DNA of 64,000 bases from Collimonas fungivorans. Its GTDB lineage: Bacteria; Pseudomonadota; Gammaproteobacteria; Burkholderiales; Burkholderiaceae_D. Shown one piece after another: positions 4,939 through 35,023 of this stretch. A program made the position numbers and the translations under genes. The stretch is taken from positions 1,984,001-2,048,000 of the forward strand of contig NZ_CP013232.1 of assembly GCF_001584145.1 (NCBI RefSeq), given 5' to 3'. How positions within the stretch are numbered: the stretch's first letter is position 1; every line of letters begins with the position of its first letter. A model generated the notes under the pieces. The model was not told the DNA's origin. It saw only the letters and a list, made by a program, of their open reading frames with translations, and searched no databases.

Positions 4939-5592
4939 ATGAATTTTTTTGATTACCTGTTGAGCGCCTGGCCCGAAATCCTGCATCTGACGATCCAGCA
5001 CCTGATGCTGGTGGGGATAGCGGTTGGCCTGGCGATCCTGATCGGCGTGCCGCTCGGCATCGTCATGATTCGCCACCGCTGGCTGGCCAGCCCGATGATG
5101 GGCCTGGCGACAGTGATCCTGACCTTGCCCTCGATCGCCTTGTTCGGCTTGATGATCCCGCTGTTTTCCCGCTTCGGCCAGGGACTGGGGCCGCTGCCGG
5201 CGATCACCGCGGTATTCCTGTATTCCCTGTTGCCGATCATGCGCAACACCTACCTGGCGCTGGACGGCATCGACCACGGTATCAAGGAAGCCGGGATCGG
5301 CATCGGCATGACTTTCTGGCAGCGCCTGCGGCTGGTTGACTTGCCGTTGTCGGTGCCGGTCATCCTGGGCGGCGTCCGCACCGCCGTGGTCATGAACATC
5401 GGCGTGATGGCGGTGGCGGCGATCATCGGCGCCGGCGGCCTCGGCGTGCTGATCCTGCATGCCATCAGCCAGAGCAATATGCAAAAACTCGTAGTCGGCG
5501 CGGTATTGATCAGCGTACTCGCGATTGTCGCCGACATGCTGCTGCAAGTCCTGCAGCGGCTGCTTACACCGAAAGGAATGCAAAAATCATGA
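4939..5592 (+). CDS. Osmoprotectant ABC transporter, second permease
   Basis: A 217-aa inner-membrane permease of the OpuCB/YehW group. Six hydrophobic stretches are visible, with an EAA-type loop EAGIGIGMTFWQRL near residue 116. Its last four bases overlap the ATG of the ATPase gene, indicating coupled translation. Together with the first permease it probably forms a heterodimeric channel. Confidence 0.87.
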   Translation: MNFFDYLLSAWPEILHLTIQHLMLVGIAVGLAILIGVPLGIVMIRHRWLASPMMGLATVILTLPSIALFGLMIPLFSRFGQGLGPLPAITAVFLYSLLPIMRNTYLALDGIDHGIKEAGIGIGMTFWQRLRLVDLPLSVPVILGGVRTAVVMNIGVMAVAAIIGAGGLGVLILHAISQSNMQKLVVGAVLISVLAIVADMLLQVLQRLLTPKGMQKS

Positions 5593-6797: not shown

Positions 6798-6917
6798 AAA
6801 AATGTGAGGTTCCTGCTGCAGGCGAAGACCTGGCATACCATTTACAATGTGTGGTTTTGCCAGCCTCATTTCAAAACCCATGATCAGGTACCCAAGGTAT
6901 TCCCACGGAGCTAGCGC

Positions 6918-7883: not shown

Positions 7884-9296
7884 TTAGCGGTCGCCAAACG
7901 AGCGACGGGCGCCGCTGTCGTTCGAACGGTTGCCTTTGTAGCCGCCGCCACCGCCACCGCCGTCTTTGCGTGGTGCGCCTGGCTTGCTGAAAGTACGGCC
8001 GCCTGGTTTAGCAGGACCGCCGCGGTTGTCGCCTGGTTTCCAGCCGCCTGGTTTGTGGTTCGAGCGCGGAGCCGAAGCCGAACGCTTTGGTTCGAAACCT
8101 TCAACTACATCGACCGGGATCAGTTGCTTGGTGAAACGTTCGATGCGCTTGACGTTGACGCCTTCAGCGTGGTTCACCAGCGAGACTGCAACGCCGTTAC
8201 GGCCGGCACGACCGGTACGGCCGATACGGTGGACGTAGTCTTCCGGGAATTTCGGCAGATCGTAGTTGAATACGTGGGTGATCGCAGGGACGTCGATACC
8301 GCGAGCGGCGACGTCGGTAGCAACCAGCACACGGACTTGGCCGCGACGCAGGCTGTCCAGGGTGCGGTTACGCGCGCCTTGGTGCATGTCGCCATGCAGG
8401 GCAGCAGCAGCGAAACCGGCGATGTTCAGGCGGTCGGCGATAGTGTCGGCATCACGCTTGGTAGCAGTAAACACAACTGCCTGGTCCATGGTGACGTCGC
8501 GCAGCAGGTGGTCCAGCAGGCGATTCTTGTGCGACAGATCGTCGACGAAGTGAACCTTCTGTTGGATGTTTTCGTGCTTGGTGGCGGAACCGGCGATCTG
8601 GATGATCATCGGGTTCTTGGTGATGCGTTTTGCCATGTTGCCGACAACGCCGTCCAGCGTGGCCGAGAACAGCATGGTCTGGCGCGATTCAGGCGTAGCG
8701 TCAACGATTTTTTCGATGTCGTCGATGAAACCCATGTCCAGCATGCGGTCAGCTTCGTCCAGCACCAGGATCTGCAGTTGCGAGAAATCGATCTTGCCCG
8801 ATTCCATGTGGTCGATCAGGCGGCCAGGCGTAGCAACCAGGATTTCCGGGTTCTTGGCCAGCAATTGCATCTGTTTAGGGTAAGGCATGCCGCCCAGGAT
8901 CGAGATCGCCTTGACGCGCTTCATGTGCGAACCGTACTTGTCGGTTGCAGTAGTTACTTGCAAAGCCAGTTCGCGGGTCGGTGTCAGGACCAGCATCTTT
9001 GGCTGTGCCGGCTTGAAGCGTGGACGCTCGCCGCGTGAACGGGAGGCTTGCATTTCTTGATTCGGAGTCTTGCCTGCGGCGGCCGGAGCAACTTGTTGCT
9101 CGGAGGCGAATTTGTGCAGCGCAGGCAGCATGAATGCTGCGGTCTTGCCGGAGCCGGTTTGCGAGGAAACCAGCAGGTCACGGCCTTCGATGGCAGCAGG
9201 GATGGCTTGTTCTTGAACGCTTGTCGGTTTTGTGTAGCCAGCTTCGGTCAGTGCTTTGATAACGGACGTGTGGAGGCCTAGTGATTCAAAAGTCAT
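7884..9296 (-). CDS. rhlE: DEAD-box ATP-dependent RNA helicase (RhlE type)
   Basis: A 470-aa helicase for RNA remodelling (ribosome assembly, RNA decay, cold adaptation). In order: Q-motif (PTSVQEQAIP), motif I SSQTGSGKT, Ia PTRELALQ, Ib TPGRL, motif II LDEAD, motif III SAT, motif IV region VVFTAT, motif V ARGIDVP and motif VI HRIGRTGRAG. The C-terminal 90 or so residues are basic and rich in Gly, Arg and Pro, the unstructured RNA-binding tail of RhlE proteins. It is monocistronic with a shared terminator. Confidence 0.92.
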   Translation of the reverse strand: MTFESLGLHTSVIKALTEAGYTKPTSVQEQAIPAAIEGRDLLVSSQTGSGKTAAFMLPALHKFASEQQVAPAAAGKTPNQEMQASRSRGERPRFKPAQPKMLVLTPTRELALQVTTATDKYGSHMKRVKAISILGGMPYPKQMQLLAKNPEILVATPGRLIDHMESGKIDFSQLQILVLDEADRMLDMGFIDDIEKIVDATPESRQTMLFSATLDGVVGNMAKRITKNPMIIQIAGSATKHENIQQKVHFVDDLSHKNRLLDHLLRDVTMDQAVVFTATKRDADTIADRLNIAGFAAAALHGDMHQGARNRTLDSLRRGQVRVLVATDVAARGIDVPAITHVFNYDLPKFPEDYVHRIGRTGRAGRNGVAVSLVNHAEGVNVKRIERFTKQLIPVDVVEGFEPKRSASAPRSNHKPGGWKPGDNRGGPAKPGGRTFSKPGAPRKDGGGGGGGYKGNRSNDSGARRSFGDR

Positions 9297-9771
9297 TTTT
9301 TTCTTTCGTAAAGTGCAGCGTCATGAACTACAGCCATCGACCATGCGATGAATGCAGCGAACGCAAAAAAGCAACGCCAACCAACGAAATGACTAAGAAA
9401 CAAATACAAAGAAATTTCGGCACAAAAGCTTTGCGCCGGGACGGTGTCAGGATCGACACACAAGGCGGGAGGGCTTTTACAATGCGATGTCCCAATTTGA
9501 GGCCAGGACACGCTTAGGCTTGCGCAGCTACTTATTGTTTTTTACAGCGCCGCCGGATCCGGGACCTGGCAACTTGCTGTCTGCGTTCGTTATTGCAACG
9601 CAGCACAGAATAATACAATACTTTTACAATCGGCGCACCTTATTCATGCGATTGCCGCAAATTAGCCCTGGTTTGCGGCTGCACCGTTGTTTGTGGCGCA
9701 TTTTCAGGTGTCGAGGGTTGAGATACAAACAACTATTTTCAGTTTGGCAATAATGCCTTTTGGAGAGTTGT
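9297..9771. other. Gap without a recognisable gene
   Basis: About 475 bp between the rhlE start and the fabI terminator. Short open frames exist on both strands, but none has a convincing ribosome site or recognisable sequence. The rhlE promoter must lie in its left part, read on the minus strand. A long leader would be normal for this helicase class, but no specific site is identified. Confidence 0.4.
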
Positions 9772-9802
9772 AAAAAAACGCCCAGCTATGCCGGGCGCTT
9801 TA
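9772..9802 (-). terminator. Terminator of fabI
   Basis: Read on the minus strand, a GC-rich hairpin (GCGCCCGGC...GCTGGGCG) is followed by seven Ts. Confidence 0.85.
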
Positions 9803-9826
9803 AGCATACCGCGGCCGCTCGCCGGA

Positions 9827-10609
9827 TTATTCGGCGATGCCGCCCACTACTTGCGAGAAACCGCCGTCGACATAGGTGATTTCACCGGTAATGCCGCTGG
9901 ACAGGTCCGACAGCAGGAAGGCGGCGGCATTGCCGACGTCTTCAACCGTCACATTGCGGCGCAGCGGTGCGTGCTCGGCGACAAAACCCAGGATCTTGCC
10001 GAAACCCTTGATGCCGCTGGCGGCCAGGGTCTTGATCGGGCCGGCCGAAATGCCGTTCACGCGCACGCCCTTGGGACCCAGCGAACCGGCCAGGTAACGC
10101 ACGCTGGCTTCCAGCGAGGCCTTGGCCAGGCCCATTGTGTTGTAGTTGGGGACCACGCGCTCCGAACCCAGGTAGGTCAGCGTCAGCAGCGCCGAATTCG
10201 GGCGCAGCATCGGCAGCGCGGCTTTTGCCATCGCCGGGAAGCTATAGGCGGAAATGTCGTGCGCGATCTTGAAGCCTTCGCGCGACAAGCCGTCGAGGAA
10301 ATCGCCGGCGATCGCGTCGGCAGGAGCGAAGCCGATGGCGTGCACCAGGCCGTCCAGGTGGTCCCAGGATTTGCCGAGGTCGGCGAACAGGGCGTTGATT
10401 TGCTCGTCGCTGCCGACGTCGCAGTCAAAAATCAGTTCGCTGTCGAATTCCTTGGCGAAATTGGTGATGCGCTCCTTGAAGCGCTCGCCTACATAGGTGA
10501 ACGCCAGCTCGGCACCTTCGCGCTTGCAAGCTTGGGCGATGCCGTAAGCGATCGAACGGTTGGATAGCAAGCCGGTGATCAGGATTTTTTTGCCTTGCAG
10601 GAATGCCAT
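9827..10609 (-). CDS. fabI: Enoyl-[acyl-carrier-protein] reductase, NADH-dependent
   Basis: A 260-aa short-chain reductase that completes each cycle of fatty-acid elongation; it is the target of triclosan-type inhibitors. It has the modified dinucleotide motif [13 protein letters not shown] near the N-terminus, the FabI catalytic pair Tyr-x6-Lys in YNTMGLAK, and the C-terminal DGGFSQ. The frame is open eight codons further, but the ATG at 10609 is preferred because GGAG sits 7 bases before it and the length then equals the family norm (about 260). Confidence 0.93.
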
Positions 10610-14696: not shown

Positions 14697-15434
14697 ATGC
14701 GACAAATCGTTCTGGATACCGAAACCACCGGCCTCAACCCGCGCACCGGCGACCGCGTCATCGAAATCGGTTGCGTCGAGTTGCTGAACCGGCGCCTGAC
14801 CGGCAATAACTTCCATCGCTACATCAACCCCGAGCGCGATTCGGAAGAAGGCGCGCTGGCAGTCCACGGCCTGACCACCGCCTTCCTCAGCGACAAGCCG
14901 AAGTTCGCCGAAATATTCGACGAGCTGCGCGAGTACACCCGCGGCGCCCAGGTCATCATCCACAACGCCCCGTTCGACCTGGGCTTCCTCGACGCCGAAT
15001 ACAAGCTGCTAGGCAAGGGCACGTTTTCCGGCGATGTCGCCGGCGTCATCGACACCCTGGTGCAAGCCAAGGAAATGTATCCAGGCAAACGCAATTCGCT
15101 GGATGCCCTGTGCGACCGCTACGGCATCTCTAACGCCCACCGCACCTTGCACGGCGCCTTGCTTGACTCCGAATTGCTGGCCGAGGTGTACCTGGCGATG
15201 ACGCGCGGCCAGAACAGTTTCAGCATCGACCTTGGGGCAGGGCACGGCGATGCGGACGGCGGCGGTGCGGCGCTGGAACTGCTGCCGCTGGCGGAGATCG
15301 TGGTGCGCACGGCGAACGCGGAAGAACTGGCCGAGCATGAGCTGCTGCTCAACGGTTTGGACAAGGATGCCAAAGGCGCCTGCATATGGCGCCAGCCGGC
15401 GGCAGATGCAACGGAAAACCCGCCGCAAAACTGA
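14697..15434 (+). CDS. dnaQ: DNA polymerase III epsilon subunit (3'-5' proofreading exonuclease)
   Basis: A 245-aa DEDDh exonuclease that proofreads replication. Exo I is VLDTETTGL with the two acidic residues, Exo II NAPFDLGFL, and Exo III HGALLDSELLAEVYLAM with the DEDDh His. The C-terminal tail (about 190-245) would bind the polymerase alpha subunit. A GTG two codons earlier (14691) is also possible; the ATG matches the family N-terminus MRQIVLDTETTG. Confidence 0.94.
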   Translation: MRQIVLDTETTGLNPRTGDRVIEIGCVELLNRRLTGNNFHRYINPERDSEEGALAVHGLTTAFLSDKPKFAEIFDELREYTRGAQVIIHNAPFDLGFLDAEYKLLGKGTFSGDVAGVIDTLVQAKEMYPGKRNSLDALCDRYGISNAHRTLHGALLDSELLAEVYLAMTRGQNSFSIDLGAGHGDADGGGAALELLPLAEIVVRTANAEELAEHELLLNGLDKDAKGACIWRQPAADATENPPQN

Positions 15435-15500
15435 TCTTGTAAAAAATTCACACAAGACACTAGCCACGAACGAGATTTGCCATTATAATTTCGCTTCTTT

Positions 15501-15577
15501 AGGCGCGTAGCTCAGCTGGTTAGAGCACTACCTTGACATGGTAGGGGTCGTTGGTTCGAGTCCAATCGTGCCTACCA
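15501..15577 (+). tRNA. tRNA-Val (anticodon GAC)
   Basis: A 77-nt cloverleaf: acceptor AGGCGCG/CGTGCCT with one G-T pair, D-stem GCTC/GAGC, anticodon stem CTACC/GGTAG around TTGACAT (anticodon GAC), T-arm GGTTCGAGTCC, encoded CCA. The 3' half is overlapped on the other strand by the integrase gene, so this tRNA is the likely attachment site of the island to the right. Confidence 0.95.
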
Positions 15578-16791
15578 GTATTCTCAACGTTTGCGGGGAT
15601 GCTGGGACAAATTCGGGACAAATTCGAATTTGTTTGTAAGTGAATATCAGTGGAATGGAAGCGCAGTACGGCTTCCATTTTTGCTTTCTCCCTCCCGCGA
15701 TCTGCGGAATCAATCCACTTTGCATAGACCGTAAATAGCATTTTTGCATTTGCATGCCCTAGCTGGCGGCTGATGTACGTCGGGTTCACGCCGGCCATTA
15801 ATGCTGTTGTCGCGTAAGTGTGCCGGGTTTGGTAAGCGCGGCGTGTGCGAATCCCCAAACGTTTCAACGTTGGCTTCCAGTAATGGTCCCTCTGGCTGCG
15901 TTCGTCATGCCATGGCTTCTCGGTAACCGGGTTCTCAAATATCTCCGCCGATTTCATATAAGTGAAGGATTTTTGCGCCTGAAGCACCGCAATTGCTCGG
16001 TCAACCAGGTCGACGTCACGAATTTCATGCGTTTTTAGGCTTTTGAGCTGCCCCATAAAAGTTCTCGCCTGTTCGACCCTAACGGTGCCGTGATTCCAGT
16101 CGACGTCTCCCCAGCGCAGTGCGATCAGTTCTTCTGGCCGCATGCCCGTCATAAATGCGAATTCAAAATAATTCGCTATCCGACGATCATAGTGTTCGCG
16201 CATGCTTGAGAGAATCCACTCCATCTCTTCTGTAGTGAGCGGATCCGGCGCAGCTTTCTGATGTTTGCCATTCTCAATACCTTGCATTGGATTGACGAGC
16301 TCATGTATTTCCCGTCCTGCCAAGGTAAAGACACCTCTAAGTGGAATCAGATAATTATTGCAAAGCTTCGCGCTTGGCCAAGGATGCGAGCCAACGATCG
16401 CTACAATTTTTCCGTAACTCAGGGTTTCGATCGGGCTGTCGGCGCCAAGCTTGCTCTGCCAGAATTTCAGTGCATTTGAATATTGCGAGAGCGTGGCAGC
16501 CGCCAGTCGACCTTTGGTCTTAAGCCACATGTCGCACATGGCCCCAAACGTTCTGACTGTGGAGCCCATTTTCTCGGCATTGGGTGAATTCGGGAAAAAC
16601 TCGCCATAGACAAAATTGCCCATCTGGATCTTGTGTTTGATCTGATCGACCAGCCGCTCCGCGAATTTGATGTTCGGTGCGGTCGGTCTCAAGTCGAGCG
16701 TCTCCCTACAACGACGCAACCGCCAGCTAAAAGACACGCGAATTGATGCTTCGCGAATCTCTACGCCGTTACCTTTACGCCCTCTACCCAT
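15520..16791 (-). CDS. Tyrosine recombinase (island/prophage integrase)
   Basis: A 423-aa phage-type integrase with a basic N-terminal arm-binding region of the DUF3596 kind (about 1-65), a SAM-like core-binding domain (about 80-175) and a catalytic domain. Active-site residues: Arg218 in GMRPEELIALRW, Lys253, Arg323-His324 in YQTRHTYAT (Tyr replaces the usual first His, as in many relatives), His346 in LGHAN and the nucleophile Tyr356. About 18 C-terminal codons lie in the tRNA-Val gene, read antisense, as expected for an element integrated at the tRNA 3' end. No excisionase gene is recognised. Confidence 0.9.
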   Translation of the reverse strand: MGRGRKGNGVEIREASIRVSFSWRLRRCRETLDLRPTAPNIKFAERLVDQIKHKIQMGNFVYGEFFPNSPNAEKMGSTVRTFGAMCDMWLKTKGRLAAATLSQYSNALKFWQSKLGADSPIETLSYGKIVAIVGSHPWPSAKLCNNYLIPLRGVFTLAGREIHELVNPMQGIENGKHQKAAPDPLTTEEMEWILSSMREHYDRRIANYFEFAFMTGMRPEELIALRWGDVDWNHGTVRVEQARTFMGQLKSLKTHEIRDVDLVDRAIAVLQAQKSFTYMKSAEIFENPVTEKPWHDERSQRDHYWKPTLKRLGIRTRRAYQTRHTYATTALMAGVNPTYISRQLGHANAKMLFTVYAKWIDSADRGREKAKMEAVLRFHSTDIHLQTNSNLSRICPSIPANVENTGRHDWTRTNDPYHVKVVL

Positions 16792-17144
16792 TTGTAATAC
16801 TCCTGCATATTCATGTTTATGTGGCCGTCTGGCGCACGACGGTAGTGAATTCCCTCAACCCAGATACCGTCTCGATTTTTCGCCGAACGGCTTTGTCGGT
16901 ATATCCGGTGAGGGTGCAAAACACCGGTATTAGTACTAAGTGTACGTGGATGCCGGTCACTGCCGTCATCTCACTTTACCAGTACTTCTGCGACATTTCA
17001 CAACTTGCACAAAGGAGGCCGCATCCTTCTCTCCGATGCGCGACTCGCGTTGCGGCGCGGCCAATGCAGCGTCGTCAATGTACTTAACTGGGTTTGTTGT
17101 CATGATAGGATTCTCGAATAATTAGTACTAACAGGGAGGCGGGA
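16792..17144. other. Gap upstream of the integrase
   Basis: About 350 bp between the divergent integrase and a small membrane-protein gene. Short frames are present but none looks coding. The promoters of both flanking genes should lie here; no palindrome or repeat stands out. Confidence 0.35.
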
Positions 17145-18893: not shown

Positions 18894-21224
18894 ATGAATA
18901 GAACAGGGTTCTTCGCCTATACAGCAATGCCGGTCGCTCTGGGCGAAACCATCGAGAGGGCTCTCAATCAAGCGCGATCACTGAACGGATTGACTCAAAT
19001 TTTCTCGTGGAAAGCTCTCGATATCGCGGGCCATTTTATACCCCTGGAGATTGAGAAGCAGCTAGAAGAGGCCAGCTACTTAGTGGCCGACATTACGTTT
19101 CTCAATTTTAATGTCACTTATGAAATCGGATTTGCAATAGGCAAGGGGAAGCGAATCTTTCTAGTTCGAAATCGGAGCTTTCAAGAGCAACCTCCTAACA
19201 TAAGGGAGGTTGGCATATTTGATACGCTCGGCTATAGCGAATATGCAAATGCTGACGACCTTAGGCAGCTGGTTTCAAATTTCACTTCGGATGATCCGAT
19301 CGGACTCTCAACAACATTGAATAAAAAGGCGCCTGTTTACCTTCTCGAGGCGAAACACAAGACGGATTGGATGTCCAGAGTGGTTTCTCGGGTAAAGAAG
19401 GCGCGCTATACCTTTCGAAATTTTGATCCGAATGAATCGCCTAGGCTTTCCGCTCACGACGCGATAAGTCATGTCTGTCAATCGTATGGCGTTTTGGTGC
19501 CGCTGATCTCAGCGGCACAAGACGGTGCGACTGTTCACAATTTGCGCGGCGCATTTATAGCTGGTTTGGCGGCGGGTATGGGGAAAGCTCGTTGTATATT
19601 GCAACAAGGCGATGGGCCAGTGCCGGTGGATCTTCGTGATGTTGCTGAAACGGCACAACGAATCGAAGAGGTAAATGAGATCGTAGCCGAATTTGCTTCG
19701 CGCGTTGCAGAGGCGTTTCAAGATGATCACGTTGCTTTAGATACCCCCAAGGCAACGTTCCTGCAAACGATGGATCTTGGATCGTCGTCCGCCGAAAACG
19801 AAATGCGGACGCTTGCAAAATATTATTTGGTAACGGACGCGTTTCTAAAGTCCATACGAGGTGAGGCTCATCTCGTGGTGGGTCGGAAAGGTTCAGGGAA
19901 GTCAGCTGTGTTTCTTCAGCTAAGAGACCGTGAAAGATCAAGAAATCCGAGCCAAAATATTGTTTTGGATCTCAAGCCCGAAGGTTACAAGCTTGTTAAA
20001 TTCAAGGAGATGATGCTCAGTTTTATGAAGGAGGGCACGCTGCAACATACCATCACCGCATTTTGGAATTATGTATTGCTTCTCGAAATCTGCTACAAAG
20101 TGCTGGAAAAAGATGAAAAACGCCATCTTAACGATCACGATCTCTTTGACTCATACAAAAAACTTGAAGATCTCTATCATGTGCAAAAGTATTTTTCGGA
20201 AGGGGATTTTTCCGAGCGGATTGGCGCGCTGATAGAAAAAATACAAGCAAATTACAACATAAAATATGGTGGAGAGTACGACGTCGAACTTGATTCGGCA
20301 CAGGTAACCGAACTGTTATATCAACACGATGTGAAGCGTCTAGAAATAGAGCTGACAAAGTACATGAAGCACAAAGGTGCTTTGTGGCTTCTGTTTGATA
20401 ACGTAGATAAAGGCTGGCCGACAACCGGACTTCAACACGCGGACCTTATGATAATAAGAGGACTAATTGACGCCTCCCGCAAAATAGAACGCGAATTTTC
20501 GAAACAAGACGTTGCCGTAAGTACAGTAGTTTTTCTTCGCAATGACGTTTACGAGTTACTTGTTCAAGAAACATCTGATCGGGGCAAGGAAGGTAATGTC
20601 ATGCTTGACTGGACAGATCAAGATTTGTTGCGGGAGGTAGTTCGTCTGCGCATCGTGGCCAACGGAATTAAGGATTCTCTACCTATTGAGACCGTATGGC
20701 CAATGATTTGTGTGTCTCATTATAAGGGCGAGGACAGCCTGCAATATCTGATCGATAGGTCTCTTATGAGACCAAGATTTTTGCTTAACTTGATTAACCA
20801 ATGTAAAGCGTCAGCCGTAAATCATCGTCATTCTAAAATAGACGAAAGCGATATTGAAAAAGGTCTCAAAACCTTCTCCGTGGATATTCTCGCTGACGTG
20901 GAATATGAAATTAATGATATCTCTCCAAATTCTGGAGAAGTACTTTATGCATTTATTGATTCTCCAAGCATTATGGACAGTAAATGCTTGGTGGAGCTAT
21001 TGGAAAGATTCGGCATTTCTTCAACGAGTACCGCCGGTGTTATTGATCTCTTGTTATGGTACGGATTTCTAGGAGTTCAAGTTGATACAGAAGAGGTCCG
21101 ATATATATACGACTTTAGTTATAGCACGCGTATGTTAACGGGATTCTTGAAAGCTAAACCGAGTGCGGCCTATGTAGTAAATCCTGCGTTCTATCAAGCA
21201 CTGACGATAACGAGGAAACCGTAG
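18894..21224 (+). CDS. Predicted defence protein: two NDT/TIR-like domains plus P-loop ATPase
   Basis: 776 aa. Residues 1-130 resemble the nucleoside 2-deoxyribosyltransferase/TIR-like superfamily: ASYLVADITFLNFNVTYEIGFAIGKGKRIFLV with Asp66 and Glu77 at the catalytic positions. Residues 145-275 look like a second, degenerate copy. From about 300 a P-loop ATPase follows, with Walker A GRKGSGKS (330-337) and Walker B LWLLFDNVD (Asp502), resembling Sll1717-type/STAND-like ATPases, then a helical C-terminus. Such an architecture suggests a nucleotide- or NAD-cleaving effector controlled by an NTPase sensor, probably anti-phage. It lies alone on the plus strand with GGGGG before the ATG. Domain calls are by eye. 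Confidence 0.75.
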   Translation: MNRTGFFAYTAMPVALGETIERALNQARSLNGLTQIFSWKALDIAGHFIPLEIEKQLEEASYLVADITFLNFNVTYEIGFAIGKGKRIFLVRNRSFQEQPPNIREVGIFDTLGYSEYANADDLRQLVSNFTSDDPIGLSTTLNKKAPVYLLEAKHKTDWMSRVVSRVKKARYTFRNFDPNESPRLSAHDAISHVCQSYGVLVPLISAAQDGATVHNLRGAFIAGLAAGMGKARCILQQGDGPVPVDLRDVAETAQRIEEVNEIVAEFASRVAEAFQDDHVALDTPKATFLQTMDLGSSSAENEMRTLAKYYLVTDAFLKSIRGEAHLVVGRKGSGKSAVFLQLRDRERSRNPSQNIVLDLKPEGYKLVKFKEMMLSFMKEGTLQHTITAFWNYVLLLEICYKVLEKDEKRHLNDHDLFDSYKKLEDLYHVQKYFSEGDFSERIGALIEKIQANYNIKYGGEYDVELDSAQVTELLYQHDVKRLEIELTKYMKHKGALWLLFDNVDKGWPTTGLQHADLMIIRGLIDASRKIEREFSKQDVAVSTVVFLRNDVYELLVQETSDRGKEGNVMLDWTDQDLLREVVRLRIVANGIKDSLPIETVWPMICVSHYKGEDSLQYLIDRSLMRPRFLLNLINQCKASAVNHRHSKIDESDIEKGLKTFSVDILADVEYEINDISPNSGEVLYAFIDSPSIMDSKCLVELLERFGISSTSTAGVIDLLLWYGFLGVQVDTEEVRYIYDFSYSTRMLTGFLKAKPSAAYVVNPAFYQALTITRKP

Positions 21225-21437: not shown

Positions 21438-21498
21438 ATTTAACGTCCGAATTAAGCGAAGAGCTAGGATGCCATAGTTATCATGCTGAAAATTAGGC
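21438..21498 (-). repeat. attC-like site C after the TIR-DUF3298 gene
   Basis: On the minus strand GCCTAAT (21498-21492, one mismatch to RYYYAAC) and GTTAAAT (21444-21438, exact GTTRRRY) bracket an imperfect hairpin, AGCATGAT with ATCCTAGCT, that has one extra base. The right half contains CGCTTAATTC, close to the right half of aadA-type attC sites. Recombination activity is unproven. Confidence 0.4.
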
Positions 21499-21504
21499 AT
21501 GCCT

Positions 21505-22707
21505 TTAATCGTCTACGAGTTTCGTGGCACGCTTCTTCTGCCAGGCGATATGTTCGATTTCTAATGCACTTTGATATTCAGGACGGATAAATTCAATCAA
21601 CTCGATGTACGGAACTTCAGCAAACTGTGGACCACATGCATATGCTGCCACTTGGTAGGGAGCAAATAAGAATTCGATACAATCTTCTTTGAAAATGAAT
21701 GAATTAAAATCACTCCAGTTTTGCGTTCCTAAAGCAATGCCGTTCGAATCAAGACAAACCTGATGTTCCTCTTCTGGGCTGCCGAGTTTTATGGCCATAA
21801 GCTTGTTACGGACGGAATTTTGTACGTTTAGAAAGGCTTCCGATGACGTAATGAAAATTTGTTCAAGTGACTCAATTAAGATTAAGGGGGCCATTACGAA
21901 AGAATAGGTGCAAAAATCTATATTCGGATGTGCTGCGCCCGCGCCGTACCAGTGGATTGCGTATTGAATGGTCAGAACTCTCCCTTTTATGACCGGATCG
22001 GAGCAATGCGCGTCATATGTGTTTGTTCTGCGATATTTTTCTTGGCCGAAGTTGTATTGGCTAGGAGCTTGATCGAGCATCGAACTCCTAGAGGAAAAGA
22101 GACTTTCAAGGAGTCGGCCTTGTATGTATTCTCCCGCTTCATAGAGTGCGGGGTATTTGGTTGATTGCAATCTAATAAATTGTAGTTCTGTTTCGTAGCC
22201 AGGTAATCCATCGCATATCTCTTTCTTTGTTTGAAATGACCAGGATAGTTCCTCTTTTACTTGAAGCTTTTGTGTCTCAACTCCTAGCTTGTTCAATTGC
22301 AAGTTCAGCGCTTCCACGACACCAATCATGCAATTTGACGCATTCGCCGAAATGCACTGAATTCCCTGCAATTGATCTGGTATGAGAATCCCGTCGTCCA
22401 GCATTACAGGGATGAGGTAGATGTCATCAATAAGTTTTTCAGAAAGCTTATCTAGCGCGATCTTTATTTCTCTTTGCGCATAGCCCCTTCTGTTTATTGA
22501 ATTCTCGGATAAAAATGCAATTACAATACTTGCTTTGTCAAGTGCACGTTTGATTTCAAAGTCCCAGTTCTGGCCGGGTTTTAGTCTTTTGCAGTCATAC
22601 CAGACGTTAAATCCACTCTTCTCCAATGATTCGAAAAATGGAGTTACGCGATGCTGATCCGGTTTTGCATAACTTAGGAAAACTTGAGGAGGGTCTTGAT
22701 CATGCAT
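21505..22707 (-). CDS. TIR domain - DUF3298/RsiV-like fusion protein
   Basis: 400 aa. An N-terminal TIR domain (about 7-135) has the box VFLSYAKPD, a downstream LKPGQNWDFEI, and Glu80 in AQREIKIAL at the position of the NADase glutamate. The C-terminal half (about 160-385) resembles DUF4163/DUF3298 of RsiV and PdaC: IHWYGAGAAHPN and, near the end, CIEFLFAPYQVAAYACGP...VPYIELI. RsiV uses this fold to bind lysozyme, so the C-terminus may be the sensor and TIR the NAD-depleting effector. There is no signal peptide or membrane segment, so it would sense inside the cell. A putative attC-like site follows the stop. Confidence 0.8.
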   Translation of the reverse strand: MHDQDPPQVFLSYAKPDQHRVTPFFESLEKSGFNVWYDCKRLKPGQNWDFEIKRALDKASIVIAFLSENSINRRGYAQREIKIALDKLSEKLIDDIYLIPVMLDDGILIPDQLQGIQCISANASNCMIGVVEALNLQLNKLGVETQKLQVKEELSWSFQTKKEICDGLPGYETELQFIRLQSTKYPALYEAGEYIQGRLLESLFSSRSSMLDQAPSQYNFGQEKYRRTNTYDAHCSDPVIKGRVLTIQYAIHWYGAGAAHPNIDFCTYSFVMAPLILIESLEQIFITSSEAFLNVQNSVRNKLMAIKLGSPEEEHQVCLDSNGIALGTQNWSDFNSFIFKEDCIEFLFAPYQVAAYACGPQFAEVPYIELIEFIRPEYQSALEIEHIAWQKKRATKLVDD

Positions 22708-22969
22708 ATTAGTCTCTTCTTCTATCTGGGGACATCCGTTCTAAGGCCCTACCCTGGATCAGCGATCATGTAGGTGTGATCCTGCTCAATTGCTTGACCG
22801 GCTGCGAAGCTACTTGTATCACTGTCAACATCGATTGGATCGTGGCAAGAATGTGCTGTCAATGCAATATTAAATCTACGGAGGGACTTTAACGTCCAAA
22901 AAGACTCTGACTGACACTCTGGACGACTGCCTATGTCTGTGGACGGGCAAAAAAAGAACGTTCACGGTT

Positions 22970-23031
22970 AGCCAAAACGTTAGAATCAAGCGGCGCCACA
23001 TTGTAGCGTCTGCTTGCGCGAACTGTCAGAC
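22970..23031 (-). repeat. attC-like site A after the SLATT gene
   Basis: On the minus strand GTCTGAC (23031-23025) overlaps the TGA stop of the SLATT gene. CAAGC (23016-23012) pairs with GCTTG (22991-22987), with an unpaired A in the left arm where attC sites carry an extrahelical base. The left half agrees at about 21 of 27 positions with the aadA attC as remembered. The right-hand R-prime box is degenerate (GTTTTGG). Confidence 0.45.
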
Positions 23032-23889
23032 ATCCTTCCTTGCCACCCATTGAGTGTGTTCACGTGAGAACGCATTCTCCGCGTCACCGACAAATAACGA
23101 AAACTCTGTATCACTGTTAGGTAGAGACGCCTGCTCTCGTATTAAACTTATCTCATGTGCAGCCAGCGCGTAAGATGCCGCAAGTTCAGAGAACCTTTTG
23201 GCCTGCATCCAGCTCAGTAGGCTGGCAGCGGCGGCGACGAAAACATCTGTCGGCCAGAACGGAATTTCCACCAATTTGATCCTTAGGATTGCGCAGAGAA
23301 TAGCTGCTCCATTTGTCGCTATCAGAACCCAGAAGAAGCCGTTGGAAGTACGTCTATTAAAGGCTGCTTTTTTTGCGTACCAAGTGAGTTGGTTCTTGAT
23401 GCGGCCGGTCGCGTAGGCCATCTTCCTCTCATCAAGCGGATGCGCACGCATCTGGGTCATGACACTGGATATCTGTGACGCCTCCAGGTAATCAGAGAGG
23501 GACTGTGCGACGTCCTTATTTTGGTCCACTATAGCCTGCAACCTCTTTTGGAAGTCGCCTCTTGCCGTCACGTCGTCACCTTGGAACGGCTCTGCGCGAC
23601 AGACGTAACGCCAGGTGATAGTCTTGATCGACTCTGCAACTGCCCGGCTGGCGTACCAGTAACGCTCAGGACGCCTCGCGAACAAATAGATCGAACAAGA
23701 CATGGCCCCTAGTAAGACCAACAATTGGAACATCGCAACTGACCAGTGTGGGATGTTCGTGATCGACAGAATTGCAGTTATCACCAATAAGGCTAGATTC
23801 ACTTTTAATGCGCGGAAGAAGTACGTTTGGTACTCGAGTGAACGATTGTTGGCAGACCTGTATAAGGCCGGAAAATCTTGCTCTTGCAT
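23026..23889 (-). CDS. SLATT-domain (DUF4231-like) membrane protein
   Basis: 287 aa with four membrane segments in two pairs (about 28-45, 51-70, 184-203, 213-230) and a cytoplasmic middle. The motif GRIKNQLTWYAKKA at about 162-175 just before the third segment is the SLATT hallmark. SLATT proteins are predicted pore-forming effectors in nucleotide-signalling conflict systems. The gene starts 15 bp after the TIR gene on the same strand with AGAGG before the ATG, so both form one operon: a signal-producing TIR and a membrane-disrupting responder. The pairing recalls Thoeris but with SLATT replacing ThsA. Confidence 0.75.
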   Translation of the reverse strand: MQEQDFPALYRSANNRSLEYQTYFFRALKVNLALLVITAILSITNIPHWSVAMFQLLVLLGAMSCSIYLFARRPERYWYASRAVAESIKTITWRYVCRAEPFQGDDVTARGDFQKRLQAIVDQNKDVAQSLSDYLEASQISSVMTQMRAHPLDERKMAYATGRIKNQLTWYAKKAAFNRRTSNGFFWVLIATNGAAILCAILRIKLVEIPFWPTDVFVAAAASLLSWMQAKRFSELAASYALAAHEISLIREQASLPNSDTEFSLFVGDAENAFSREHTQWVARKDV

Positions 23890-23904
23890 ATATCTGCCTC
23901 TTAG

Positions 23905-24375
23905 TTAATAGCCGAGCCGAGCATAAATCTCGTCCTTGTAATGGTAATCGTCATTCGGCGCCATCTGGTAGTTCGTCAATGCATACGCAACTATTTTGGG
24001 AGAGAACGGGACGAAGATTGCGCCGATATTTCTGATGATTGGCGGACAGACAGCATCAACGACTTGCCTGGATTTATCGAGATTGATACCGATAATTCTG
24101 CACTTCTTTTCAAGTGCAACTTCCATCTCCCAGCGGACATACTTGTGCCTTGATCTAGTATCCCGTCCAATCAGCACTGCAAACGTACCGGCCATGTTGA
24201 TGCGTTCTCGGCACTTGCGCTTGATGTATGCTTCGTCTTCCGAGTTGATTTCGCTACCAAGCTGGCAATTTGTGAAATCGAAGTCAATATGCTCGTTCGC
24301 TTTCCAGGCCAGCATCAGCCGATAATAGTGAATATCGGTACTGCTGAAACTGACAAATGTCCTTGGTAATGGCAT
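23905..24375 (-). CDS. TIR-like protein of the DUF1863/ThsB type
   Basis: 156 aa, a stand-alone TIR-like domain similar to Thoeris ThsB proteins. It begins RTFVSFSSTDIHYYRLM, continues with SEDEAYIKRKCRERI, and has the candidate catalytic Glu83 in KYVRWEMEVAL. ThsB enzymes make a cyclic-ADP-ribose-type signal from NAD on phage infection. The downstream gene, 15 bp away, encodes a SLATT membrane protein, the likely receptor. A good ribosome site (AGAGGA) precedes the ATG. The upstream boundary is an attC-like sequence. Confidence 0.8.
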   Translation of the reverse strand: MPLPRTFVSFSSTDIHYYRLMLAWKANEHIDFDFTNCQLGSEINSEDEAYIKRKCRERINMAGTFAVLIGRDTRSRHKYVRWEMEVALEKKCRIIGINLDKSRQVVDAVCPPIIRNIGAIFVPFSPKIVAYALTNYQMAPNDDYHYKDEIYARLGY

Positions 24376-24410
24376 TTTTTTCCTCTTATTTCTTGGGCTA
24401 GATACGGGGG

Positions 24411-24467
24411 CGCTAATGTAGAGCTAAGCGGTGCCACGCGATTTTGGCGCGCAGCATCCTGTTAGAA
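24411..24467 (-). repeat. attC-like site B after the NDT-like gene
   Basis: On the minus strand TTCTAAC (24467-24461, one mismatch to RYYYAAC) overlaps the TAA stop of the gene at 24462. GCCA/TGGC and GCG/CGC pair around an AT-rich loop. The right arm CGCTTAGCTC...ATTAG resembles the attC right half GCTTAACTC...GTTAG. Degenerate. Confidence 0.4.
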
Positions 24468-25355
24468 TTCCTCGTCGGCCTTTCGGTAGAATTCAGGTGA
24501 GTTAGCGAAAAAGGAGTCGCTCCATATATTGCAATCTAATATTCTTGCGCTGACATTTGTTCCCTGGTGTGCATACCAACTGTAGCCGTCATGTAAAGCG
24601 TCACACAGTTCCTGTTCGGTGAAGGTGGGTGTCTCTCCGTGGTGATGAATCAAATCGATTGAGATGTTAATATTGCCGCGCTTGTCGTCATGCCATATCT
24701 TTCGCAGTTGAAGAAATTCTTTATCTGTTACTTTTGCCTCAAGTGCTTGCACATCCTCATAGACTTCCTCGAAAAACTGCTTGAACCCGGCGTGGACGTC
24801 ACCGCTCCGAGCGCAGAGGTGAATAAACTGATTGCGATAGCGGAGCGTCGCTAGCGATGGATCAGGTGTGTAGCTAATAACAATGCCCTCTAAAGAGTCA
24901 TTTGTGGGTTTGTATTCAACCGCATCTTTTTTCGGTTTCCACGCTAGAGCGCGATCAGAGTCGGCCAATACGGCGAGGATGGTCTTATGAATTGCAGTCT
25001 CAAGTTGCTTTGCCCAATCTACTTTGGCACGGTCATAGACGATTACCCGAAGATGTCGATAATCAAACGGGACATCGGTCACCGACTGCGTGATGATAAT
25101 TGCAGGTTTTTGCAGTGCGTGCGCAACGCCTAGTTCATAGTTCACGTTCGGATTCTTTCCGGTGACATCGCATAGAACCAGTGTCGCACTTGAAATTGCA
25201 GCGAATATGTCATCGATAATAGCGCCTGTGTTGTAAACCTCGTCACCACGAATGGGTTGGAGATCAGCTTTGGCAATTGCAGGTTGATAAATTTTTTCGT
25301 AGTAATCATCAAACGGATCGCCAAATGGTGAAACAACGAAGCAGAATGGGTTCAT
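24462..25355 (-). CDS. Nucleoside 2-deoxyribosyltransferase-like domain protein
   Basis: 297 aa. The N-terminal 130 residues carry the superfamily signature FAAISSATLVLCDVTGKNPNVNYELG with Asp63 and Glu74, preceded by FCFVVSPFGDPFDDYY. This matches the NDT/TIR-like fold found in many predicted nucleotide-cleaving effectors. The C-terminal 165 residues are not recognised; they may bind a trigger. It lies upstream of the TIR/SLATT operon on the same strand, separated by an attC-like sequence. Role in phage defence is inferred from context. Confidence 0.7.
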   Translation of the reverse strand: MNPFCFVVSPFGDPFDDYYEKIYQPAIAKADLQPIRGDEVYNTGAIIDDIFAAISSATLVLCDVTGKNPNVNYELGVAHALQKPAIIITQSVTDVPFDYRHLRVIVYDRAKVDWAKQLETAIHKTILAVLADSDRALAWKPKKDAVEYKPTNDSLEGIVISYTPDPSLATLRYRNQFIHLCARSGDVHAGFKQFFEEVYEDVQALEAKVTDKEFLQLRKIWHDDKRGNINISIDLIHHHGETPTFTEQELCDALHDGYSWYAHQGTNVSARILDCNIWSDSFFANSPEFYRKADEEF

Positions 25356-25395
25356 AAGATTTGGTTGAGTCTTTAACTTAGTGTGAAAGATTTCT

Positions 25396-25535
25396 GCTTA
25401 GTCTCAGCTAGCTGGTGCCGCTGGCTGATCCGGACTTGAACTACTCTTTGTATTGGATCAAATTTGAGCTAGTTAATGTTCAGGTTTGTCTTAAATGCAA
25501 GCATCTTTGGGTCGTCAATTAACAACCGGTTAATC
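25396..25535 (-). repeat. attC-like site D after the immunity lipoprotein gene
   Basis: GATTAAC (25535-25529, minus strand, one mismatch to RYYYAAC) overlaps the TAA stop of the lipoprotein gene. ACTAAGC (25402-25396) is the weak right box, preceded by GCGGCACC...TAGCTG, which is similar to the right half of site B. The weakest of the four candidates. Confidence 0.28.
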
Positions 25536-26024
25536 GGGTCCTTTTAATGGCAACCTGGTGCAACGATTTCCGTCCTCTGCCCACTTTGTGAGAAATGTCT
25601 TCCCACCCGCGTCCTGGGATAGACAAAATTCAACACGAAAACGCACTTTGGTCTCGATGTCGGCATAGTACGGGACGTCGTATTGGAGCGGCGTCGGCGC
25701 TGTCGCCGTCACCCCAGTGCGCCACGATGTCCCATACTTGACGCAACGTTCAGCGCTGGCCGGCAATGCCTCCGTGCCGTGCTCGTCGTCTATCCGCCAT
25801 GCCGTCGTTGTTCCTCGATTGCTCTTTACTGTCAGTGTCTGGCCAGCCGGTGTCGGTTTGTCGTCCGCCATGGTCGCAAAAAAACAAGGCGTGTCGTCCT
25901 TTAGTATTACCTGTGCCGGCGCCGAGTATCCGCGCGATGTTGCTGTCGACTGATTTGTACAGCCGAGGCCCGTCGCTAGCAAGCAAACGCTTAGTCCTAT
26001 CCATGCTAGGTTTGTGAGCGCCAT
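25530..26024 (-). CDS. Putative type VI immunity periplasmic lipoprotein
   Basis: 164 aa with a lipoprotein signal (LLATGLGC, lipidated Cys at about 21). The mature part contains several Cys residues and RFRVEFCLSQ, a pattern found in proteins annotated as T6SS immunity periplasmic lipoproteins. Start ATG 26024 follows GAGGAATGACCGA, only a few bases after the stop of the PAAR-metallopeptidase gene, so effector and immunity would be co-translated. It would neutralise the effector in the periplasm. Confidence 0.75.
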   Translation of the reverse strand: MALTNLAWIGLSVCLLATGLGCTNQSTATSRGYSAPAQVILKDDTPCFFATMADDKPTPAGQTLTVKSNRGTTTAWRIDDEHGTEALPASAERCVKYGTSWRTGVTATAPTPLQYDVPYYADIETKVRFRVEFCLSQDAGGKTFLTKWAEDGNRCTRLPLKGPD

Positions 26025-26028
26025 TCGG

Positions 26029-27291
26029 TCATTCCTCAATTTTGGTTGAGTTGGGTAACAAGGAAACATCGGAGGGATTCTTTATAAAGCCAGTCAGTAT
26101 CTTTTGCAAGAATGGCAGATTCGTCACGTGGGTACGGTGGGTTGCCGTGTTTTCCGACAAGTACACCGCGTCGAAATAGTGGGAAACCAAATCACCTTGC
26201 TGCTCCATGTTGAAATCTGTCATGGATTTATCGCCATCTTTGGCCGGGTCGTATACGTACGCTCGCGGAGTGTCTTGCCCTGGGGCGTACTTATATCCGC
26301 CTTTGATCTGAATTTTTATGCCGCCCCATTTGACGCTATAGCCTAGCTGGTACTGCCAGACGTGCGTCATTTCGTGGATAAACCATATCCGGAACGTATC
26401 GTCCAAAGTTGAAAAATCCGGCTTGTAGTAATCCTTCGGGAAATACATTTCGCCGTTGGGCGTCATTGCATTTGAGCCGGCGCCAACCATGTAGGCGCCG
26501 TTGTGAACTTTGACCTTAGAGTAATCCACCGAGGTACCGAATACCTTCTTGGCCAAATCGATCTCGCCTGGTGTCAACGGCCGGACTTTTTCTTCCACTT
26601 TGTGTTCTATCACCGATGAGCCAAGGGCGCTCGCGTTTGTTTTGACGCCACTCAATTCGACGTCGATACCACCTTCACCACCACCGCCAGAATTCTCAGC
26701 TTGCCGGGAGCAACAAAATGCCACGTTCGGCAGCAAGTTAGCCTGCGTGATCGTACGCGGTTCTGGCGTTGTGATCCGCTCAGTTTTGCCATCGGCATCC
26801 GTTGTTCCGGTAACCTTGCTGCCGTCATCAAGCGTCAATGTATAAGCCGCGCCAGCCAGCACCGTCCCTGAACCTAGCAGGAATTTAATCTGCTCGTCGT
26901 AGCGATGCGTTTGAGCCGCTGGCTGATTGCCGGCCATAGATACGCTGGCGGCAGAGGCGGCAGCTGGAGGCGGAACGACACCTTGAGACTCTGCCTGGTC
27001 GTCGTAGGTCGCAGTTTGGTGAAGATTGGACACGAGTTTCGGATGGACGGGGCATCCGCAGATAACAATATCGTTCTCCAGCGCCACTTCGCCCATGAAG
27101 TCCATCCTGCGCGGACCACCTGCCTTGGCGATGACTCCCACGCCTTTGCAGGCCAGGCAGGTTGCCTGCCCCCCGATTAGCGCAACTTTGTGGTCAGCAT
27201 CACCAACTGAAAAAGTTGAGTTCGCATTCGGCAGAATTACGCCGCTAGTAGTCGTCTTGTCGCCTACAACGACGATCTTCCTCAAAGCCAT
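26029..27291 (-). CDS. Type VI effector: PAAR domain fused to a zinc metallopeptidase-like toxin
   Basis: 420 aa. Residues 1-90 are a PAAR-like spike (MALRKIVVVGDKTTTSGVI, Gly-rich turns, CPVHP) that caps VgrG. After an Ala-rich linker, the C-terminal domain has FIHEMTHVWQYQ: HExxH at about 306-310, a zinc-protease signature. Such domains occur in vgr-related polymorphic toxins. The start ATG 27291 has AGGAA upstream; the frame is open a further 31 codons. The immunity lipoprotein follows directly. Confidence 0.82.
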   Translation of the reverse strand: MALRKIVVVGDKTTTSGVILPNANSTFSVGDADHKVALIGGQATCLACKGVGVIAKAGGPRRMDFMGEVALENDIVICGCPVHPKLVSNLHQTATYDDQAESQGVVPPPAAASAASVSMAGNQPAAQTHRYDEQIKFLLGSGTVLAGAAYTLTLDDGSKVTGTTDADGKTERITTPEPRTITQANLLPNVAFCCSRQAENSGGGGEGGIDVELSGVKTNASALGSSVIEHKVEEKVRPLTPGEIDLAKKVFGTSVDYSKVKVHNGAYMVGAGSNAMTPNGEMYFPKDYYKPDFSTLDDTFRIWFIHEMTHVWQYQLGYSVKWGGIKIQIKGGYKYAPGQDTPRAYVYDPAKDGDKSMTDFNMEQQGDLVSHYFDAVYLSENTATHRTHVTNLPFLQKILTGFIKNPSDVSLLPNSTKIEE

Positions 27292-33298: not shown

Positions 33299-35023
33299 AT
33301 GAGCAGTGTGTTTAAGTCTTTGATAATGGGCCGTCAGCATGGCCGCATATTGCGGCTCTCTTTCCCGCACGACGATGGCCCGCAAGCCCAACTCCTGGTT
33401 AATAAACTCGATGCAGTAGAAAGCCTGTCCCGCGATTTCGAATTCAATGTCGAATTACTGTCAGATGATTCGGCACTGGCACTCAAGGACTTGCAAGGCA
33501 AGCTGTTCAGCGTAGAGCTGGTGCGGGCAGATGGCAGTCTTCGATATTTCAGCGGTTTTTGTTTCGAATTCAGTTTGACCAGGACCGATGGCGCCATCAC
33601 GTTCTACCAGGCCAAGCTGGGTCCGTGGCTGCAGTATCTGCGGCTGCGCAAAGACAATTATATTTTTCACGGCAAGACGCTGCGCGAGCAGACAGAAAAC
33701 ATTTTCAGCGACTACGGCACTCATCCCGACTGGGATTTTCAAGTGCGTGGCGAAGATGCTGTAATGACTGACGCTTGCCAGTTCGACGAGAGCGACCACA
33801 ATTATTTGCATCGTCGCTGGGAGGCCGCCGGCTGGTCGTACTGGTACGAACATACCGAAAAGGGTCACAAGCTGATCCTGACAGACGATACCACCCAGGC
33901 TGCAGCCATCGACAATGGTCCCGATATACGTTTCCAGCGCCACGGCGGCGCAACTGAAGAAGACGGCATAGGCGACTGGTCGCCGGTGCGGCAGATCGTG
34001 CCAGGCAATGTCACGCTGGCGGGATTCAATTTCAAAAGGCCCGTTCCGGTTAGCGCGGGCGTGCCGACACTGAACAAGCAAGGCAATGTCCTCGACATCG
34101 AATCTTATGAATATACCGGTGCCTACGGCGTCAAGGATGCCGGGGATGCGGATACATTGGCCCGGCTGCGCATGGAAGAAATCGAAGCGACCGGCAAGCA
34201 TTTCGAGGCAGCAGGCAATAACCGCTCGGTCCTTCCCGGGCGTTATTTTCGTCTGACGAATCACTTTGCCTTCAATCCCTTCGGCGGCAATGAAGAGGCC
34301 GGCAAGAGTGAGTTCCTGATCCTGTCGGTCCATCACGTTGCCGTCAATAATTACCTGCAACAGGCCGACGAAAAAGCAAACTACGACAACCGCCTGACCT
34401 GCATCCGCAAAGCGATCCCATGGCGGCCAGGTCGCGGTTTCAATAGTGCCGCCACGAAAATCCTGGGACCGCAAACCGCCACGGTAGTCGGTCCCTCCGG
34501 ACCGGACAGCATCCACACCGATGAATACGGCAGGATCCGTGTGCAGTTCCATTGGGACCGCATCGGCAACAACGACGAAAAGAGTTCGGCCTGGGTGCGT
34601 GTCGCCAGTTCGTGGGCCGGCAGCCAGCTCGGCGCCAAAGCGATTCCCCGGGTTGGCGCCGAAGTGATCGTGATGTGGCTGGACGGTAATCCGGACCGCC
34701 CGCTGGTGACTGGCGCTGTCTATAACCAGCGCAATATGCCGCCATGGAAACTGGCGACGCAACAGGCGCTGATGGGATTGCGTAGCCGCGAGCTGACGCC
34801 CAACGGTGGCAATGTTGCCGGCGGCCGCAGCAATCACTTGATCCTGGACGATACTAACGCCAAGATCCAGGCACAGCTCAAGAGCGACCATCAGCACAGC
34901 CAGCTGAGCCTGGGACATATCACGCGCATCGAGGACAACGCCGGCCGCAAGGATGCGCGGGCGAGGGCTGGGAGCTGCGCACCGACGGCCATGGCGTGGT
35001 ACGTTCAGCGAAGGGCATGCTGA
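33299..35023 (+). CDS. vgrG: VgrG, N-terminal part (frame broken near 34957)
   Basis: 574 aa of a type VI spike protein: gp27-like domain (VESLSRDFEFNVELLSDD..., FHGKTLREQTENIFSDYGTHPDWDF), OB-fold gp5-like domain (TATVVGPSGPDSIHTDEYGRIRVQFHWDR) and the usual motif PRVGAEVIVMWLDGNPDRPLVTGAVYN. At DNAGRKDAR the conserved sequence changes frame: the expected GEGWELRTDGHGVVRSAKG is encoded one base out of register, and this frame stops at 35023. One base is missing in a GCGC-rich run at about 34955-34960. Either a true mutation, a read error, or a programmed shift. Confidence 0.88.
   Translation: MSSVFKSLIMGRQHGRILRLSFPHDDGPQAQLLVNKLDAVESLSRDFEFNVELLSDDSALALKDLQGKLFSVELVRADGSLRYFSGFCFEFSLTRTDGAITFYQAKLGPWLQYLRLRKDNYIFHGKTLREQTENIFSDYGTHPDWDFQVRGEDAVMTDACQFDESDHNYLHRRWEAAGWSYWYEHTEKGHKLILTDDTTQAAAIDNGPDIRFQRHGGATEEDGIGDWSPVRQIVPGNVTLAGFNFKRPVPVSAGVPTLNKQGNVLDIESYEYTGAYGVKDAGDADTLARLRMEEIEATGKHFEAAGNNRSVLPGRYFRLTNHFAFNPFGGNEEAGKSEFLILSVHHVAVNNYLQQADEKANYDNRLTCIRKAIPWRPGRGFNSAATKILGPQTATVVGPSGPDSIHTDEYGRIRVQFHWDRIGNNDEKSSAWVRVASSWAGSQLGAKAIPRVGAEVIVMWLDGNPDRPLVTGAVYNQRNMPPWKLATQQALMGLRSRELTPNGGNVAGGRSNHLILDDTNAKIQAQLKSDHQHSQLSLGHITRIEDNAGRKDARARAGSCAPTAMAWYVQRRAC

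Follow-up and report, generated by a model that had tools for sequence, protein, structure and literature searches.

Probable remnant of an integron cassette array of anti-phage genes in Collimonas fungivorans

We analyzed a 64,000-nucleotide stretch of the Collimonas fungivorans genome (contig NZ_CP013232.1, positions 1,984,001 to 2,048,000; hereafter the window, with positions counted from its first letter) and consider it likely that the block of putative anti-phage genes from 25355 down to 21438 is what remains, in decayed form, of part of an integron cassette array. The array was probably made of three cassettes, carrying an NDT-like gene, a TIR+SLATT gene pair and a TIR-DUF3298 gene. The minus strand holds every gene of 21505-26024, as an initial annotation of the sequence had noted, and in the order of that strand, from 25355 to 21505, the genes encode an NDT/Rcl-like protein, a ThsB-type TIR protein, a SLATT protein and a TIR_2-DUF3298 protein; upstream of these lie two genes, for a lipoprotein-like and a PAAR-domain protein. 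The attC-like site behind the SLATT gene (site 3) ranks first by two kinds of detector, and sites 2 to 4, behind the NDT, SLATT and TIR-DUF3298 genes, are rare at control stops and against shuffles; therefore, a cassette origin is favored. Because the sites are worn and no integron integrase was found, we regard the block as a decayed remnant and not as a working array.

The initial annotation had placed attC-like sites behind four genes, and the letters on which it relied are as described: the stop codons lie inside the boxes GATTAAC (25535-25529), TTCTAAC (24467-24461) and GTCTGAC (23031-23025), and the stop at 21505 has GCCTAAT (21498-21492) shortly behind it. These sites, numbered 1 to 4 in that order, were scored with attC models built de novo, a two-block profile and a covariance model, whose training sets overlap. 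Integron integrases sought for training material exceeded the cut-off in 8 of 40 relatives and in 70 of 185 class members, and the DNA beside selected ones was used. Box and arm pairing gave 74 attC candidates, of which 4 were removed as spurious, leaving 70 sites in 17 groups for the profile; when one group was left out at a time, the median score of the training sites was 43.5 bits, and 95% of them exceeded 27.6. The covariance model, built on 32/33 non-redundant short sites, contains the canonical stem including the unpaired base, and in its alignment 87.9% of the cells pair and 113 cells show changes on both sides, compared with 39.9 in shuffles. The R'' box RYYYAAC was that of the initial annotation, and the R' consensus was GTTRRRY. 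Since the training sites were chosen by box pairing (at least 5/7), their R-box pairing is no independent yardstick; the six comparison sites for this property were taken from the profile or the covariance model. The SLATT relatives came from a scan of a species-genome collection that returned 189, the best 80 loci of which were taken. Control stops numbered 1066, 1173 or 1184 depending on the test and included other loci of the host genome and of genus mates, one locus (L158) lying inside the window. Excluded from them were 7 of the 80 SLATT loci, those with real or possible attC arrays, and two loci with one lone site of 20-21 bits each (L076 and L141) were retained.

Site 3 has the highest profile score in the window (20.2 bits; second, 14.1) and is also its top covariance-model match with filters off (16.0 bits, E 0.19; second, 9.2). 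Its full score was equaled by none of the 1066 control stops (control maximum 14.7) and its identity to the nearest attC (33/48) by none of 1173, and local dinucleotide shuffles gave p = 0.0005. Because conserved C-terminal codons supply part of GTCTGAC, the site was rescored without the R'' columns, which yielded 20.3 against a control maximum of 15.0 (1184 stops). The coding end as the sole source of the box was thus rejected: the conserved C-terminus (..RKDV, stop) gives GTNTAAC-like letters in several homologues, yet the masked signal stays. The attC sites behind SLATT in four other loci score 18.7, 22.2, 27.9 and 34.6 on the same profile scale, and site 3 is therefore worn but inside the real range. 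The CAAGC/GCTTG pairing with an unpaired base, described in the initial annotation, was found here as a bottom-strand hairpin of attC-like form with 10 pairs and one bulged T. Its folding energy is no lower than that of shuffles (z -0.11), and the likeness is one of shape, not of stability. R'' is one change away from RYYYAAC, and R' keeps the GTT core and has lost RRRY; the two boxes form 2/7 Watson-Crick pairs, short of the pairing that an attC requires, compared with 4-6/7 in the six real sites. A conserved terminator behind SLATT was also considered and rejected, as the downstream stretches of close relatives, compared by eye, differ from one another, apart from one common to Thauera, Azonexus and Azospira.

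Site 2 is closest to a real attC of another genome (G175), with an identity of 31/48 that was reached by 4 of 1173 control stops, and local shuffles gave p = 0.0015 for identity and 0.0125 for the full score. By profile it is weaker, 2.5% of control stops matching its full score and 3.2% its right half. At site 4, the right half GCTTAATTCGGACGTTAAAT is the sole exact match in the 5.6-Mb genome to GCTTAAYTCNNRCGTTRRR, a right-half consensus; when two mismatches were allowed, 7 further matches appeared, which is not above the reversed control (10). This right half scores 11.3 bits, a value reached by 1 of 1066 control stops (local shuffles, p = 0.0005), and by letter identity 8 of 1173 control stops are as good. 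The nearest-attC test over the whole of site 4 was negative, with 552 of 1173 control stops as good. Watson-Crick pairs between R'' and R' number 4/7 at site 2 and 3/7 at site 4. Folding energy failed as evidence, none of 8 folds being clearly better than shuffles (z -0.92 to 0.75). At the end of the NDT gene, the last residue is V, A, I or T in 30% of 37 homologues and F in 19%, compared with 16, 8 and 5% (F 0%) at the three preceding places and 3-22% (F up to 16%) further inward; this pattern was noticed post hoc in sequences that are not independent, finds no such excess in TIR-DUF3298 homologues, and is only a hint.

Site 1 was rejected as an attC, since most control stops are as good (Table 1) and shuffles gave p = 0.50 to 0.83 on three scores. 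Sites 3, 2 and 4 thus rise above the background of control stops, site 3 most strongly and site 4 by its right half, and the remaining proposed site, site 1, is a product of chance. The cassette layout drawn in the initial annotation holds strongly for TIR+SLATT, as a right-half remnant for TIR-DUF3298 and weakly to moderately for NDT, and does not hold as a working array. Covariance scoring and single-strand folding, both suggested with that annotation, bore out site 3 (first in the window under our own model, and attC-like in shape) and neither of the other two.

Table 1. Features of the window discussed in the text
Feature	Position	Strand	Remarks
Tyrosine (phage-type) integrase, not an integron integrase	15520..16791	-	At tRNA-Val (15501-15577), start of the block's low-GC stretch
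Site 4, attC remnant behind TIR-DUF3298	21438..21498	-	Right half GCTTAATTCGGACGTTAAAT (21457-21438) well preserved; no attC likeness in left half
TIR_2 + DUF3298 gene	21505..22707	-	PF13676 6.4e-22; PF11738 5.3e-7
Site 3, degraded attC behind SLATT	22972..23031	-	R'' GTCTGAC overlaps stop; one base bulges from the L''/L' hairpin (CAAGC..GCTTG); R' eroded to GTTTTGG
SLATT gene (SLATT_3 + SLATT_1), predicted membrane effector	23026..23889	-	PF18184 2e-42; PF18181 3.2e-38
ThsB-type TIR gene, first in TIR+SLATT unit	23905..24375	-	PF08937 8.5e-18; PADLOC ThsB 5.7e-43; PDB 8v6t 3.1e-18
Site 2, probable attC remnant behind NDT gene	24411..24467	-	TTCTAAC ... GCTTAGCTCTACATTAGCG; core GTT changed to ATT
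NDT/Rcl-like nucleotide-hydrolase domain with C-terminal domain of no known family	24462..25355	-	NPNVNYELG motif conserved; PADLOC TIR-type effector 1.6e-11
Site 1, GATTAAC at lipoprotein stop, not attC	25529..25535	-	890/1173 control stops as good
Lipoprotein-like gene	25530..26024	-	Pfam scan without match; attC tests behind stop negative

Genes of these kinds are found in cassettes elsewhere. A homologue of the window's TIR was detected by tblastn in 53 of the 80 SLATT loci, and more distant TIR genes (L140 and L152) were seen by domain instead. In Aliidiomarina soli (L121) and Salinivibrio siamensis (L152), a ThsB-type TIR gene and a SLATT gene form a two-gene cassette between attC sites, at 5433-5480 and 6880-6951 in the former and at 5465-5542 and 6880-6967 in the latter; by coordinates, the TIR+SLATT cassette measures 1.47 kb in A. 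soli and 1.44 kb here. TIR and SLATT genes are followed by an attC in a Hyphomicrobiales metagenome-assembled genome (L140), and the SLATT stop is overlapped by an attC in Shewanella (L127). As for NDT, a 355-residue protein of genome G209 containing an NDT domain (43% over 137 residues) is encoded between attC sites at 3031-2968 and 1871-1816 of locus L176, and the second attC begins just past the stop codon, which directly precedes TTCTAAC. The occurrence of TIR+SLATT and NDT-domain genes between attC sites in other loci indicates that these gene kinds travel as cassettes. Behind the S. siamensis cassette, the array (8244-9859) holds two genes (8329-9255 and 9252-9788) between attC sites, the first of which gives a short NDT-like match. 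We did not count this gene as NDT-like evidence, because it has no Pfam or PADLOC match and shows only 35% over 55 residues (E 8e-8 in one comparison).

Several observations weigh against a cassette origin. Over the whole window, the E value of site 3 is only about 0.06 by profile (random sequence gives 0.064 matches of at least 20 bits per window, both strands) to 0.19 by covariance. Its profile score lies below those of 95% of the left-out training sites (27.6 bits), and its 16.0 bits stand at the bottom of the covariance scores of 17 other attC-like sites in six loci (15.1-43.5 bits, listed to E 1), one further row of that list being a site already counted, on its other strand. Sites 2 and 4 have no above-noise match to the covariance model (4.2 bits overlapping site 4; site 2 unlisted) and no attC-like fold. 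A whole-genome covariance search of the host gave no match, but 150 of 4313 candidates were scored, so this result has little weight. Moreover, 71 of the 80 SLATT loci contain no site of at least 20 bits. The closest TIR+SLATT relatives, at 71-79% identity (a Geobacter metagenome-assembled genome, Methylotenera, Thauera, Azonexus, Azospira and Ottowia), lack a complete attC downstream of the stop, with best full scores of at most 12.8; five of these six are devoid of any attC of at least 20 bits, and the Geobacter locus (L076) has one lone 20.9 site away from the SLATT stop. Therefore, the TIR+SLATT unit also travels without integrons. At the SLATT stop itself, attC-like left halves, partly coding-derived, were seen in the Geobacter locus (left 8.0, full 4.9) and in Ottowia (L098; left 5.8, full 12.8), and the two loci are possible further cassette fossils.

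Three other explanations were weighed against a decayed array. In the first, a lone TIR+SLATT cassette entered an ordinary defense island and left site 3 as the one genuine attC remnant, the likeness at sites 2 and 4 being coincidental. Site 3 alone exceeds the covariance noise, and the other two lack an attC fold. However, sites 2 and 4 are rare at control stops (4/1173 and 1/1066) and have the correct place and strand, and a cassette that inserts outside an integron is not expected to leave attC remnants behind its neighbors, which makes this explanation unlikely. We find it more doubtful still that the block is an ordinary defense island whose attC-like features are all chance, picked out by an expectant reader. 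Clusters of defense genes without integrons are common, site 1 is indeed a chance match, and the window-wide E of site 3 (0.06-0.19) and the 71 SLATT loci without an attC of at least 20 bits speak in the same direction; however, the sites stand at stop codons on the correct strand, the shuffle p is 0.0005 for both site 3 and the right half of site 4, and the TIR+SLATT unit is a cassette between attC sites elsewhere. Finally, a still mobile integrase-less array (a cluster of attC sites lacking an integron integrase, CALIN), movable by an integron integrase in trans, is highly improbable, for although the GTT core is intact at site 3, as are its L-box hairpin and bulged base, R-box pairing has fallen to 2/7 (site 3), 4/7 (site 2) and 3/7 (site 4) compared with 4-6/7 in the six real sites, and the core of site 2 is ATT, not GTT.

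The reading of the block as a decayed array is supported by the wear of the sites, the open gene frames and the failure to find an integron integrase. The initial annotation had seen no such integrase nearby, and the same is true of the whole genome: in 5.6 Mb on a single contig, no match exceeded the TIGR02249 cut-off of 265 bits, and the best match reached 83 bits over positions 237-303 of 315. GC content is 0.41-0.53 over about 15.5-28 kb, compared with 0.58-0.62 to the left of this stretch and 0.55-0.62 to its right as far as 32.5 kb. The window yielded no second copy of the tRNA-Val end by which to place the far boundary of the island; partial copies of the tRNA 3' end lie about 8-90 kb away in three other genomes (G005, G006 and G012). 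In G003, the nearest genus mate (96% in the core flank), tRNA-Val is occupied by a related integrase, with 84% over 15149-16884; the next 10 kb or so share no nucleotide similarity with the window, and similarity resumes at 42625. In this genome and in G009 and G007, similarity reaches the end of the integrase and then diverges, and the stretches examined from the three contain no site of at least 18 bits. The tRNA-Val with its tyrosine integrase (15501-16791) has the appearance of a hotspot for integration in the genus. In a member of the host's family (G015, locus L010), a large integron has at least 21 distinct attC sites within 20 kb next to an integron integrase, and a cassette donor is thus close at hand.

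Close copies of the genes are scarce. SLATT at E 1e-30 was found in 1 of 384 genomes, the host's own; NDT in 1 of 399 (again its own) at 1e-60 and in 4 of 369, own included, at 1e-25; and TIR-DUF3298 in 2 of 196, own included, at 1e-30 and in 1 of 369 (own) at 1e-25. No relatives with another gene order were found, nor any that carry the block as one unchanging operon, and the related genomes searched hold no close copies of the genes. Judged from these sequence comparisons, the block is private to the host lineage among the genomes searched and is probably a recent import. Relatives on plasmids, all below 60% identity, comprise 81 records for SLATT, 8 for TIR-DUF3298 and 82 for NDT, and viral contigs gave none for NDT and one locus for TIR-DUF3298, which has no site of at least 14 bits. 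Among the matches listed (120 each), NDT homologues (to 85%) and TIR-DUF3298 homologues (to 78%) are mostly on short metagenome contigs, with the longest contig above 50 kb in few; as expected, such short contigs fit poorly assembling cassette arrays, among other causes.

We suggest the following course of events, drawing on known integron biology. In an ancestor or donor, each unit would have been a circular cassette whose attC, as a bottom-strand hairpin, was recombined by an integron integrase. The fragment would later have been placed beside tRNA-Val, in an apparent genomic island, without an integron integrase. Free of selection for recombination, the attC sites would have worn down, with R-box pairing affected at all three, and the gene frames would have stayed open. 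From what is known of their families, the genes were probably kept for anti-phage action: the TIR protein would sense infection and make a signal derived from nicotinamide adenine dinucleotide (NAD), SLATT would then permeabilize the membrane, and the action of the NDT-like protein and of TIR-DUF3298 would be to use up nucleotides or NAD. The NDT-like protein, which retains the NPNVNYELG motif, is predicted to hydrolyze nucleotides; its Pfam scan gave no match, and PDB matches to Rcl were only weak (E 0.011). TIR-DUF3298 is probably an NADase with a sensing domain.

Around the block, the PAAR protein (26029-27291) carries a HEMTH metallopeptidase-like motif, seen by eye; the lipoprotein-like gene lies next to it, and a VgrG-type gene is found at 33299-35023. 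By position, the lipoprotein-like gene is more likely to pair with the upstream PAAR gene than to be a cassette, and the two are probably an effector of type VI secretion and its partner protein, which would mark the edge of the cassette block. On the plus strand, a 776-residue protein (18894-21224) facing the block has an NDT-like start and a P-loop (GRKGSGKS), both by eye, with no Pfam match and a weak PADLOC match, and is perhaps a further defense protein.

Integrase-less cassette arrays are already published, and the IntegronFinder 2.0 paper (PMC9024848) describes them as CALIN. The block shares with these its cassette-like genes in one orientation, its attC-like ends and the lack of a detected integrase in the genome; it differs in that fewer than two sites pass the covariance model (site 3 only) and all are worn, whereas the IntegronFinder default is at least two attC. 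The formal two-attC rule does not admit the block as a CALIN, but its way of working, now or in the past, is that of one. Anti-phage genes as integron cassettes are likewise published, in a paper on Xanthomonas (PMC12444791) in which work on Vibrio is also cited, and the feature in common is defense genes as cargo; by comparison, the block here adjoins tRNA-Val, no integrase was found and the sites are decayed. A TIR gene adjoining a two-transmembrane SLATT gene has been described in firmicute phages, and SLATT was predicted to be a membrane effector regulated by ADP-ribose derivatives (PMC9503650). As in that pair, the TIR gene here is directly upstream of SLATT; unlike it, the present pair is the bacterial SLATT_3+SLATT_1 version, which in two loci is flanked by attC sites as a cassette. 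The ThsB-family TIR recalls Thoeris (PF08937; weakly, PDB 9b7d and 6lhy, E 0.011), but its partner is SLATT, not ThsA, and no ThsA model was among the PADLOC matches of the five proteins scanned. A literature search, with most subscription journals outside its scope, found no report of a TIR+SLATT integron cassette.

The spread of defense genes as integron cassettes is known, and the block described here is a fossilized case of it. Tentatively, and with less than even confidence, we propose that integrons feed defense islands: TIR+SLATT (and NDT-effector) cassettes would pass between unrelated integrons, several would then be deposited together in integrase-less chromosomal islands, and attC decay would hide their origin. 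Because attC sites decay, such a route would be hard to see, and a locus in mid-decay, together with the TIR+SLATT cassette in attC arrays elsewhere, would provide a concrete case of it. The stop-anchored attC test could be applied across defense islands to measure the share of cassette origin. If our proposal is true, many defense islands may hold cassette fossils below standard attC thresholds.

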